A DNA stretch of 21,889 bases. Source: Chloroflexota bacterium (GTDB lineage Bacteria; Chloroflexota; Anaerolineae; B4-G1; SLSP01). Below, in pieces: positions 16,007-19,454 of the stretch. A program made the position numbers and the translations under genes. The DNA lies in the NCBI GenBank assembly GCA_012798275.1, contig JAAZNO010000349.1:1-21889 (forward strand), written 5' to 3'. The notes beneath the pieces were generated by a model, which saw only the letters and a program-made list of their open reading frames with translations, was not told the DNA's origin and ran no database searches. Within the stretch, counting starts at the first letter, position 1. The number at the start of each line of letters is the position of its first letter.

Positions 16007-17425
16007 ATGAAAATAAGTATTAGAAATTTAGGCCCGGTTGAAAACGCCGAGATAGCACTGCGCCCACTGACGATTTTTGTTGGCCCTAGCAATGCGGGAA
16101 AAACCTGGACCGCAAATGCCATTGCTAACCTTCTGGGGCTATTCGGTTATGGCTGGTTAGAATACTTAAATGCGTTCAAAGAACAAAAAACTTCAGAGAA
16201 TTATCCTGTTATAGAAACTATTATTGAAGAATTATCAAGAAAAGGAAATTCTCAGGTTGATTTATTGACGTTTGCGGAACGCTATGGGGAGATGTACTTT
16301 GACGGCATTGCCAGACTTGCTCAAGATTGGCTCCCAACCGTGATTGGCGCGCCAGTTACCAATTTCAAACAAACACAGCTACAAGTCACAGTAGATTATA
16401 CTTCAGAAAAATGGGACAAATTAGCTGAGCTGAAAGTCAAAGACCAGGTCGGCGGTGTTTTGCGCGCGCTAAAAGAAACTGGCAATACAACGTTGTACTT
16501 TTACACCGAAGGCGAAGCCTCGAATCTACATCCTACCATCATCCGTGAATTTGTGGCCCGAAATATCTTTGCCGCGTTACACCGTTGTTTATATGCCTTC
16601 GTTTGGCCGTTTCCCACAGAACGTAGTGGTTTTTTCCCCCAGTTAGAACAAGTTGGACAATTATTGCGGGGCTTGCCTGGGTATGGCTCGACTATGCAAT
16701 CTTATGCGGATTTGACAGAGAATCTAAAACGCACCATGGTGAATTTTCCTATTACTATTTACCAGGGGTGGATGACAACCGCTCTTTTGACTGGCACGCG
16801 CGTTCAACGGGAACAGCAGGCGCGCCAAGAGCCTGAGATCAACGAATACCTGCGGCTTGCCGAAATTTTGGAACATGACTTATTGGGGGGAAAGGTTGAC
16901 TTTTCCACTCCGGAGCCAAGTATCGAACGACGCATCCATTTCTCGATTCCTGGCGGGGCATTGGGTATCAATGCAGCCTCTTCAGCGGTCAAAGAATTGG
17001 CGCCGCTGGTATTTTATCTGCGGTATTTGGCCACTGAAGGCGATTTAGTGGTGATTGATGAACCCGAAATGAATCTTCATCCGGAAGCCCAGGTACGGTT
17101 AGTGGAATTCCTCGGCATGATGGTCAATGCCGGGATCAATGTGATGGCCACTACCCATAGCCCGTATGTGGTGGATCACCTGGCCAACCTGATAGCCGGT
17201 GCACGCCATCCAAGACCTGCTGAAGCCGCTGAGCATTTCTTCCTGAAACGTGAGGCGGCCTTACTCTCACAGGCACAAGTTGCGGTTTACCTTTTTGAGA
17301 AGGGGACCGCGCACAGCATTCTGGATGAACAGGGCGATATTGACTGGGGCACTTTTGGGCGGGTTTCTGACCGTATTTCTCAAATTTATTTTGATGTCCT
17401 TGATGTTGTGGGAGCGGTTGAGTAA
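16007..17425 (+). CDS. OLD/ABC-type AAA family ATPase, putative defence-cassette component
   Basis: A 472-residue AAA_15/AAA_21-type ATPase related to SMC/OLD nucleotide-binding domains. MKISIRNLGPVENAEIALRP and Walker A GPSNAGKT (26-33) open the protein. A long insert (about 45-300) replaces the coiled coil. A signature-like segment (AASSAVKELAPLVFYLRYL) leads to Walker B VVIDEPEMNLHPEAQ with D351 and E352, and the H-loop ATTHSPYVVDHL with H384. The TOPRIM nuclease domain of OLD proteins is absent. By eye its first half is clearly richer in A and T than mutS or ruvB (for example ATT, AAT and AAA codons), suggesting transfer. It starts 14 nt after mutS with only a weak AGAAAG ribosome site. 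The ExK-motif gene follows after 2 nt. Such ATPases pair with effectors in Septu, PARIS and RloAB-like systems; assignment to any of them is not supported. Confidence 0.88.
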   Translation: MKISIRNLGPVENAEIALRPLTIFVGPSNAGKTWTANAIANLLGLFGYGWLEYLNAFKEQKTSENYPVIETIIEELSRKGNSQVDLLTFAERYGEMYFDGIARLAQDWLPTVIGAPVTNFKQTQLQVTVDYTSEKWDKLAELKVKDQVGGVLRALKETGNTTLYFYTEGEASNLHPTIIREFVARNIFAALHRCLYAFVWPFPTERSGFFPQLEQVGQLLRGLPGYGSTMQSYADLTENLKRTMVNFPITIYQGWMTTALLTGTRVQREQQARQEPEINEYLRLAEILEHDLLGGKVDFSTPEPSIERRIHFSIPGGALGINAASSAVKELAPLVFYLRYLATEGDLVVIDEPEMNLHPEAQVRLVEFLGMMVNAGINVMATTHSPYVVDHLANLIAGARHPRPAEAAEHFFLKREAALLSQAQVAVYLFEKGTAHSILDEQGDIDWGTFGRVSDRISQIYFDVLDVVGAVE

Positions 17426-17427
17426 CG

Positions 17428-17919
17428 ATGCCTTGTTCAACCATGCGCGAACGCTGTCGGCACCCAGGAAATGCTTACAGAGAAAGAGGTATTGTCGTGC
17501 GCGTTACCCCGCGCCAGGGTGAGACTTGGAAATGGTTTGCCATTGACGATCAGACAAATCGTCCCTGTGCCTTGCGTGCCGAACTGCACATCTGCGGCGC
17601 CTTGAGCGATCTATTGGTTTTCTACACGCCTGAGGGAAGCGCGTCCACTACCATTTGCATTGTAGAGCTGAAGGGAAGCGATATCACGCATGCCATCGAG
17701 CAAGTCATCAACACGCTGCAATCGCTTGCGCCGCATTTCAACGCTAATCATGCTCAACCGCTTCGACAACAAACGACTTGGAAGGCGTATATTTGCACGC
17801 GCGGCTCTGCTCCCCAATTTCACAGCCCTCAATCGCGGAGATTGCTGCACGCCTTCGGGCATGGAAATTTTGCCATTCAGCAGAACCCTGACCTGGGTCA
17901 GTTTCTGCGTCAACATTGA
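17428..17919 (+). CDS. Small protein with PD-(D/E)XK-like core, partner of the upstream ATPase
   Basis: A 163-residue protein I cannot name. Residues 50-96 (RAELHICGALSDLLVFY, then ICIVELKGSDITHAIEQVINT) show the pattern of a PD-(D/E)XK nuclease core: D61 at the end of a beta hairpin, E80-x-K82 on the next strand, and an alpha helix with Q92. 'VELKG' followed by a helix with Gln is common in such folds. Later motifs include AYICTRGSAPQ at 120-130, a likely further strand. The short N-terminus (MPCSTMRERCRHPGNAYRERG) is doubtful: an ATG at 17443 is an alternative, and neither has a clear ribosome site. The gene lies 2 nt behind the ATPase, so the two are translationally coupled. Inferred role: nuclease effector or substrate-binding partner of the ATPase. 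It could instead be a non-catalytic member of the fold. Confidence 0.7.
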   Translation: MPCSTMRERCRHPGNAYRERGIVVRVTPRQGETWKWFAIDDQTNRPCALRAELHICGALSDLLVFYTPEGSASTTICIVELKGSDITHAIEQVINTLQSLAPHFNANHAQPLRQQTTWKAYICTRGSAPQFHSPQSRRLLHAFGHGNFAIQQNPDLGQFLRQH

Positions 17920-18367: not shown

Positions 18368-18766
18368 ATGAAACTCTCGCAACCGCTCAAGATCCTGGTG
18401 GGAATCGCGACCCTATGGGTGGTGATCTACCCGCTGGCGATGTTTGTCACGTGGCTGATGTTGATGGCGCTCGCGCCGCTGACGGGGGGACGGGGCGACA
18501 CTCCAGGGCCGCTTTTCTTCTTCATCTTCATGATCTTCATGCTCATCGCCGTCGGCGGCTCGTGGTTCCGGCTGGCGCTGCAACTCTTCTACCTGAGCCA
18601 CATCATCCTGAACCGGGCCGGCAACGATACGGCGCGCGTCTTGCTGGGGATTGGCTGCGTCGTGCTACCCCTCGTGGCGTTGCCCTGCACCTATTTCCTC
18701 TATGTCCTGCCGCAGCGCCCGCCGGAGTGGGCCTTGTCTCGACCCCCGGCCAAGGCGGCGGCATGA
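18368..18766 (+). CDS. Small polytopic membrane protein, function unknown
   Basis: A 132-residue protein with three hydrophobic stretches: about 8-35, 48-76 (possibly two short helices, FFFIFMIFMLIAVGG and RLALQLFYL) and 90-113, then a Pro/Ala-rich cytoplasmic-type tail. There are no conserved motifs that I recognise. A good ribosome site (AAAGGAG, 6 nt spacing) precedes the ATG. Its stop overlaps the next start in an ATGA, so it is coupled to the acetyltransferase gene and follows rnk by 12 nt. Confidence 0.8.
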   Translation: MKLSQPLKILVGIATLWVVIYPLAMFVTWLMLMALAPLTGGRGDTPGPLFFFIFMIFMLIAVGGSWFRLALQLFYLSHIILNRAGNDTARVLLGIGCVVLPLVALPCTYFLYVLPQRPPEWALSRPPAKAAA

Positions 18767-19454
18767 GCTGTGTCCCCCTCCTGCGCGATGAGCGGGTACG
18801 GCTGGCGGCAGTGACCCCGGCAGATTATCCGCTCATCGCCCGCTGGTATGAGGACGCGGACTTCATGCGCCGGTATGACGCCTCCCCGGCGATGCCCAAA
18901 ACCGTCGCCGAGGTGATCAAGTACATCGAGGAGCAACAACAAGCGCCGACGGCGTTCCCGTTTGCGGTGCGGCTTCTGGAAAACGACGCGCTCATCGGCT
19001 ACCTGGAAGTGGACGGCATTTTCTGGAATCATGGCACCGGTTGGATCAGCCTGGACATTGGCGAGCCGGGGTATCGCGGGCAGGGCTACGGCTATGCCGC
19101 GATGACGCTGGGGCTGGATTTTGCCTTCCGCGAGCTCAATTTGCGCCGCGTACAGCTCACCGTCTTTGCCGACAATGCGCCGGCCATCGCGCTCTACGAG
19201 CAGTCTGTCGGGGAGAACACGTTTTGCGGAGTGCTGTCCCACTCAAGCACGATCTTAACCTTTGGTTCGGGCCTTGCGCCCCACTTCTGCCGCAAAAATC
19301 CGCCAATTTAGGGATGGCATTTCTTGCTCCGACAGACTGCGAGCGCCTGGGTTTCCGGCGCGAGGGCGTTTTCCGCGAATTCCTGTTCCGCGATGGGGAA
19401 GTCGGCGACATGGTGCTCTACGGCATCCTGCGCCGCGAATGGTGTGGGGCTTGA
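18763..19454 (+). pseudogene. GNAT N-acetyltransferase gene interrupted by a 139-bp insertion
   Basis: A RimJ/RimL-type acetyltransferase that would transfer acetyl from acetyl-CoA to an amine. The first part (18763-19200, 146 residues) has LRLAAV-type opening strands, the acetyl-CoA loop YRGQGYGYAA at 104-113 and LRRVQLTVFADNAPAIALYE. At 19201 a MITE-like element enters and ends the frame at 19309-19311. The missing end (RLGFRREGVFREFLFRDGEVGDMVLYGILRREW) continues at 19344-19454. Removing the element and one 4-bp duplication restores ALYE-RLGFRREG without any other change: an intact 182-residue gene. By chance the interrupted frame also encodes 182 residues, with the element supplying a 36-residue new tail. 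Loss of the last strands of the fold probably inactivates it. The start overlaps the preceding stop (ATGA). Confidence 0.9.
19201..19339 (+). mobile_element. 139-bp MITE-like non-autonomous insertion with terminal inverted repeats
   Basis: The left end CAGTCTGTCGG (19201-19211) is exactly complementary to the right end (19329-19339). Imperfect pairing continues inward (GGAGAA against AGCAAGAA). A second inverted pair, TTTTGCGG near 19222-19229 and its complement CCGCAAAA near 19290-19297, lies further in. The element is flanked by direct repeats CGAG at 19197-19200 and 19340-19343, the signature of transposition with a 4-bp target duplication. It has no transposase gene, so it depends on an enzyme supplied elsewhere. 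A 4-bp duplication occurs in the IS701 group and some others; the family is not assigned. No second copy was found in this window. Confidence 0.88.

Follow-up and report, generated by a model that had tools for sequence, protein, structure and literature searches.

What separates the two halves of a GNAT acetyltransferase gene in this stretch of 21,889 nucleotides from a Chloroflexota bacterium (hereafter the window), and where did the intervening DNA come from? An earlier note, made from the letters alone, had proposed a recent MITE insertion. We compared the locus with the genomes of the window's family, order and class and with a wider collection, and we asked what the inserted DNA shares with other mobile elements.

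The interrupted gene and its empty sites

The N part of the gene carries an acetyltransferase domain (PF13302, 65.9 bits, 8e-18, cut-off 25.4; first 145 codons searched), which bears out the proposal that an acetyltransferase gene is split here. The split falls after codon 146, and the next codon on the far side of the element resumes the gene. The features of the locus are collected in Table 1.

Table 1. Features of the interrupted gene and of the inserted element, in window coordinates
Feature	Position	Strand	Basis and remarks
GNAT acetyltransferase gene, 5′ part, interrupted	18763-19200	+	146 codons; PF13302
Target duplication CGAG, left copy	19197-19200	.	sequence; equivalent present once in six closest homologues
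Non-autonomous element, read as IS1182-type MITE	19201-19339	.	139 bp; TIR and duplication; relatives L187, L035
Left TIR CAGTCTGTCGG	19201-19211	+	sequence
Internal inverted repeat, left arm TTTTGCGG	19222-19229	+	sequence; paired in predicted fold
45-bp core, common to type B and C miniature elements	19276-19320	+	not recognisable in IS
Internal inverted repeat, right arm CCGCAAAA	19290-19297	+	sequence; paired in predicted fold
Stop codon inside element, ends interrupted gene	19309-19311	+	146 own and 36 element-encoded residues
Right TIR CCGACAGACTG	19329-19339	-	sequence
Target duplication CGAG, right copy	19340-19343	.	sequence
GNAT gene, detached 3′ part	19344-19454	+	36 codons and stop; tblastn, adjoins N part in 6/6 homologues

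Matches to the N part occur in 15 of the 24 family genomes (the window's own counted), many of them paralogues, and the empty-site comparison covers the six closest homologues: those of the congeners G003, G004 and G001, at 77 to 81% identity, and those of G008, G013 and G014, at 47 to 50%. In all six, tblastn places the N and C parts at adjoining bases with no gap, and the equivalent of CGAG is present once (TGAG, TGAG, CGAG, CGAG, CGAA and TGAG). The frame of G014 contains one TAG. The peptide encoded by the element matched none of the six beyond chance (best E 0.089). Since the homologues are uninterrupted and the element-encoded peptide is unmatched, we conclude that the site was empty and that the element was added to it. 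Removal of the element and one CGAG restores the downstream frame, as had been claimed, and no other lesion was seen in the otherwise unbroken gene. The insertion can thus be called recent in a relative sense, given the perfect ends and duplication and the lack of other visible damage, but a single copy provides no clock.

The interrupted frame continues for 36 residues into the element before it stops. Replacement of the last 36 residues of the protein by element-encoded ones most likely inactivates the GNAT protein. In another congener, G002, the gene is missing in a different way. Its upstream region matches that of the window at 86% identity over 887 bp. After GNAT codon 25 the sequence gives way to about 1.45 kb of other DNA, and downstream the similarity returns for the final 53 bp of the sequence retrieved. 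The loss of the gene by this other route indicates that it is dispensable in the genus. By eye, two frames can be made out in the replacement DNA (L176:888-2337), one like a small membrane protein and the other like a methyltransferase.

Direct reading confirmed the coordinates, the length and the exactness of the TIRs and duplications reported in the earlier note. Taken by itself, a perfect 11-bp inverted repeat is nothing unusual in the window: eight such pairs, 40 to 500 bp, are present, against a mean of 5.8 in 200 first-order Markov sequences. It becomes rare once joined with a 4-bp duplication, as one of the eight pairs has a flanking 4-bp direct repeat, compared with a mean of 0.02 in the Markov sequences, 4 of which had any. 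The 143-bp difference can also be read as an element with 12-bp ends (GCAG...CTGC) and a GA duplication of 2 bp; we favour the 4-bp duplication because CTAG-type duplications flank the relatives described below.

The secondary inverted repeats announced inside the element are present and pair in its predicted DNA fold, whose energy is -27.4 kcal/mol; shuffles average -17.2 (sd 3.0), which gives z = -3.4. A consensus fold of five related IS1182-type elements (type A, see below) scored unfavourably for covariation, and outside the TIR stem many of its internal pairs were broken, so that it gave no sign of a conserved structure. An Rfam search of the window at gathering scores returned no match. 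The element is short and contains no transposase frame, in keeping with its reported lack of coding capacity.

Elsewhere in the window, a two-gene block (16007-17919) lies between mutS and a Rnk/GreA-like gene. The first gene encodes an ATPase of the AAA_15/AAA_21 type, for which PD-T4-4_A is the best PADLOC match (166 bits); the second encodes a 163-aa partner with a weak match to PDC-M29B (21 bits). Alignments with the congeners G001, G003 and G004 skip this block, with about 115 bp in G003 instead of about 2 kb. Because it is skipped in three congeners, the block has the look of a defence-like island that was acquired or lost recently.

IS1182-type ends and the source of the transposase

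The window's own assembly (G000; 3.06 Mb, 724 contigs, 89% complete) contains one copy of the element and is the only one of the 24 family genomes to have it. No second pair of its ends was found in this assembly. With one mismatch allowed, the ends occur at 19 places, against 15 for a reversed control, and the 17 places other than the element's own two ends are all unpaired. The IS1182 profile NF033551 gave no match in the assembly either, so that no autonomous partner was detected in the same genome. From a single copy and no IS1182 transposase in an assembly that is 89% complete, we infer a transposase source that is absent from the assembled genome: it may have been lost, may lie in the unassembled part or may have come with another replicon. 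As a partner is present in the family and a degraded one in the genus, and the assembly is incomplete, we treat an autonomous partner within the same genome as usual, but not defining, for an IS1182-derived MITE. The earlier note had named, as one finding that would refute its proposal, a genome that lacks both further copies and an IS with the same ends. To the letter, this is what the own assembly presents, whereas relatives supply both.

In the window's family, NF033551 matched 28 places in 13 of the 24 genomes, with four genomes over the cut-off. Two complete IS1182 elements with the element's ends were recognised among the 28 places, one of them broken. The intact one, in G008, which belongs to another genus of the family, is 1625 bp long (L120:1042-2666), has exact TIRs (11 of 11 bp at both ends) and is flanked by CTAG on both sides. 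It encodes an intact transposase of 468 aa (NF033551 326.9 bits, cut-off 270; PF05598 and PF01609). The other, in the congener G003, is 1621 bp long (L155:1395-3015), with one mismatch per TIR and CTAG on both sides; its transposase, about 87% identical, is split over two frames, the pieces of which score below the NF033551 cut-off. Over its terminal 26 bp, the right end of the window element agrees with one end of the G008 IS at 88% identity. The window element is flanked by CGAG/CGAG and both IS copies by CTAG/CTAG, the duplications being alike in their length of 4 bp and in the type of target. The ISs of G001 and G004 exceed the IS1182 cut-off (564 aa); no CAGTCTGTCGG-like ends were found in their loci (L116, L117), and they were therefore rejected as partners.

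A family of IS1182-type miniature elements

We scanned one genome per species of 84,980 species, among which the window's own may be absent, for the exact TIR pair at a spacing of 102 to 132 bp. This yielded 34 stretches in eight MAGs of varied phyla, 25 of them in MAG Yes70-08 and nine in MAGs named Thermoflexales, Synergistaceae, Verrucomicrobia, Acidovorax, Alphaproteobacteria (two) and Magnetococcales. A perfect 4-bp duplication flanks 19 of the 34 stretches (4 of the 9 outside Yes70-08), and CTAG accounts for 33 of the 68 flanks. The 12-base end occurs 243 times in the eight MAG genomes, against twice for a reversed control pattern. The viral contigs searched for the TIR pair gave 0 matches.

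NF033551 matched seven of the nine genomes formed by these MAGs and the window's own, all below the cut-off, with no match in G000 and G029. Inspection of ten single-end places revealed no complete IS; one is a further MITE cut by the contig end (L065). Three loci (L058, L073 and L080) had been considered as IS1182 transposase pieces. The profile supports L058 only, the genome of the other two (G029) being unmatched, and the rest of the ten places showed neither transposase pieces nor complete ISs. The Verrucomicrobia MAG OFTM167 (G026) holds 127 exact 12-base IS1182-type ends, against one reversed, in what is a large miniature-element expansion; the elements seen there are 146 to 168 bp long (L027, L029, L063 and L084), and L027 and L029 have the ends alone in common with the window element.

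The relative L187, in a genome of the same order and another family (G034), is 139 bp long, 64.5% identical to the window element over 138 bp and flanked by CTAG/CTAG. L035, in the Thermoflexales MAG Chersky.3_67, was found via its ends alone; it is also 139 bp long and is 76% identical over the right 63 bp. This MAG also has copies of 131, 86 and 79 bp. A sequence-only profile built from five members, run under strict filters with eight candidates scored per genome, matched at least 10 of 396 class genomes, one of which is the window's own. Another (G110) is, by coordinates, the Chersky MAG. Of the nine genomes other than the window's own, seven gave elements with such ends, and G159 and G049 did not. 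Ten of the 14 complete relatives from the order and class searches are 139 or 140 bp long, the other four 111 to 119 bp, with a profile that leans to the former length because its five members are all 137 to 139 bp. Seven of the ten have a perfect CTAG duplication. The end and duplication set leaves out L197/L203 (119 bp), L200/L204 (112 and 111 bp, both containing N), the incomplete places L206-L208 and the 131-, 86- and 79-bp Chersky copies. The IS1182-type MITE family spans the order and class of these uncultured bacteria.

We read the 139-bp element as a non-autonomous IS1182-type MITE inserted in the GNAT gene, to which we assign a probability of roughly 0.93. IS1182-like ends in the family and the genus, the CTAG-like 4-bp target and the uninterrupted homologues argue for this reading. 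Against it stand the single copy with no IS1182 match in the own assembly, the small number of end-matched ISs, one of them broken, the sub-threshold or absent NF033551 matches in the eight MAGs, and the perfect duplications at just 4 of the 9 stretches outside Yes70-08. The unrelated body does not speak against an IS1182 origin, because known IS/MITE pairs often match at their ends only, and MITEs are commonly held to arise from complete ISs by internal deletion (PMC3852290). In this reading, an IS1182 transposase would have bound to the CAGTCTGTCGG ends, excised the element from a site elsewhere and inserted it at CGAG, where the two target strands were cut 4 nt apart. Repair of the gaps would have made the CGAG duplication, and the GNAT gene would from then on have ended at the element's stop codon, with its last 36 residues replaced.

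An internal deletion may also have produced the element directly, as a one-off IS1182 copy rather than a member of a MITE family with its own body. The single copy in the own genome and the IS-like terminal 26 bp fit this explanation, and the comparison of the element's 45-bp core with the G003 IS is borderline, its score being reached by 9 of 200 single-base shuffles. With the intact G008 IS, in contrast, 48 of 200 shuffles reached the score, and other families of the order and class contain 139- to 140-bp elements with a related body, such as L187. We thus regard a one-off deletion as improbable. Even less credible is an assembly or binning artefact in which a chimeric contig joined the element to the gene: the insertion is known from the assembly alone, which is metagenome-like, but the two precise junctions, the 4-bp duplication and the resumption of the gene at the next codon are hardly expected of a chimera. 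Finally, one could suppose that the inverted repeat arose by chance, or that a non-mobile hairpin was inserted long ago, with the CGAG repeats a coincidence. The eight perfect inverted repeats in the window could be invoked for this, but it is very nearly negligible in view of the duplication, the empty sites in homologues and the identity of the ends with those of a same-family IS1182 element.

A 45-bp core shared by miniature elements with different ends

Besides the window's own, the order-level search gave four matches: the MITE L187, matches in G033 and G049 that cover just 19276-19320 or 19278-19320 without the window element's ends, and a 21-bp match in G045. Over 48 genomes, this search gave per-genome E-values of 5.1e-6 (G033) and 0.0096 (G049); the G049 value by itself is not significant. 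The shared core has a consensus of about GCCCCACTTnTGGCnnAAAAACGGCCAAATTTAGGGATGGCAT. The G045 match (L188:1501-1521) is exact to 19269-19289, lies beside a GTGGGGC/GCCCCAC hairpin and is in no recognised element.

We call the IS1182-type MITEs type A, elements with IS903-like ends type B and those with a third kind of end type C. Type B elements are present in several copies in G049; they are 140 to 141 bp long, have ends GGC[GT]TTGGTGCATAAAT and hold the core (L209, L219, L221). All three complete copies have perfect 9-bp duplications (TTCTGGGAG, ATCCCCTGG and GTTCGGAGG). The letters of these ends are those of the IS903 group of IS5. IS5/IS903 elements are listed with 9-bp duplications and 17- to 18-bp ends (PMC3281130). 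Type C elements, in G033, G016 and G040, are 157 to 159 bp long, have ends ACTCnnnTGAAAAAA or nearly so and also hold the core (L229, L230, L231); one of the three has an exact 8-bp duplication (CAAGTATA). When types B and C were used as queries against the window's genome, only the core was matched (19278-19320, E 0.0089; 19276-19320, E 8e-6). A crude motif scan of the fetched loci for type B and C transposases gave nothing convincing, and their family assignment thus rests on end sequence and duplication length. The 23-bp right end of type C also occurs at many places in G034 and G017 (among L232-L258), around other short interiors partly made of CACAGAG-like repeats.

We determined the strength of core sharing by pair tests in which the 22 terminal bases were removed and scores were compared with those of shuffles. 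In 12 of 15 chosen between-type pairs the score beat all 500 dinucleotide shuffles, and in the other three it was reached by 1, 3 and 1. Over all 89 between-type pairs of 18 elements, with 300 shuffles each, 33 pairs beat all shuffles, 57 were reached by at most 3 and 21 by at least 15; the best matches were on the same strand in 81. The window element beat all shuffles against each of the seven elements of types B and C, while positions 23-75, its left half, had no clear match to any of them (7 to 275 of 300 shuffles). The type A members L195 and L202 have no recognisable core. Types B and C were first found via the window's core, and several type A elements via a profile that includes it; because the elements were picked in this manner, the shuffles overstate the significance. 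L035 was found by its ends only, and 0 or 1 of 300 shuffles reached its score against all four type B elements and the type C element L186; its matches to the type C elements L230 and L231 are weaker (9 and 43 of 300). In the core alignment, the slice in the L211 row misses the core of that element and the row is to be disregarded. The motif GCCCCACTT occurs 24 times, against 8 reversed, in 408,664 bases of fetched loci, a count from which we draw no inference because the loci were partly chosen by this motif.

We also considered whether the core might be a remnant of coding sequence, an RNA known to Rfam or the end of an IS, and found no support for any of these. At gathering scores, Rfam found only two tRNAs in L189.

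Across the types of miniature elements, the core seems to be conserved and the ends interchangeable, and the 4-bp, 9-bp and (once) 8-bp duplications around it suggest different transposase families. The conserved unit may be the 45-bp core and not the transposon, with at least three sets of ends from different transposase families in one order, a tentative proposal that we hold at slightly less than even odds. The full pair test cuts both ways, as it makes the core less general within type A and bears it out for the window element; we therefore left this estimate unchanged. The core would then be either a portable passenger that takes on new ends and so switches vehicle, or a site with which any miniature element moves or persists more readily.

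Relation to known elements

IS1182 MITEs are already in print, and the insertion as such is ordinary. MITEPye1 of Paracoccus yeei is 159 bp long, has no ORF, is flanked by 4-bp direct repeats and is present in 1 to 3 copies per chromosome; its TIRs are like those of IS1182-family ISs (ISPye18), it folds into a stem-loop, and it is presumed to be moved in trans (PMC11578231). The window element resembles it in size, lack of coding capacity, repeats, ends and fold. By description, MITEPye1 differs in its 18-bp TIRs and intergenic location, compared with 11-bp perfect TIRs and a location inside a gene here (PMC11578231), and the window element, unlike MITEPye1, has no IS1182 match in its assembled genome.

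Among complete IS1182-family elements, ISPse1 is 1653 bp long with a 16/16 TIR and a 4-bp duplication (PMC3281130), and ISPsy36 has the 4-bp palindromic target GGCC (PMC8027508). The 4-bp duplication and the palindromic target are alike, and the intact partner in G008 passes NCBI's model for IS1182; the window element has no transposase and its type of target is CTAG/CGAG. IS1272 belongs to the same transposase family and is reported to replace an inverted repeat with no target duplication (PMC5678879); here, in contrast, there is a 4-bp direct duplication, and the empty site has a single target copy.

The nearest parallel found for a core with changing ends is, by analogy, that of the CMITEs of Acropora corals. 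These eukaryotic elements of about 100 bp, described as piggyBac-like and with TTAA duplications, combine differing TIRs with an interior that is conserved and whose origin is unknown (PMC2872659). They parallel the sharing of a core, but within one transposase type, whereas the duplications here are of 4, 9 and (once) 8 bp. Titles and abstract openings in the literature disclosed no bacterial parallel to the shared core and no MITEs in these bacteria, which is not proof of absence. Tn3-derived TIMEs reportedly make mosaic non-autonomous elements.

The window element adds an IS1182-type MITE family of uncultured bacteria and points to its partner elements. If it is true that an internal module is kept while the ends change, this would suggest that some MITEs are assembled around such a module, a prediction that is testable in genomes.
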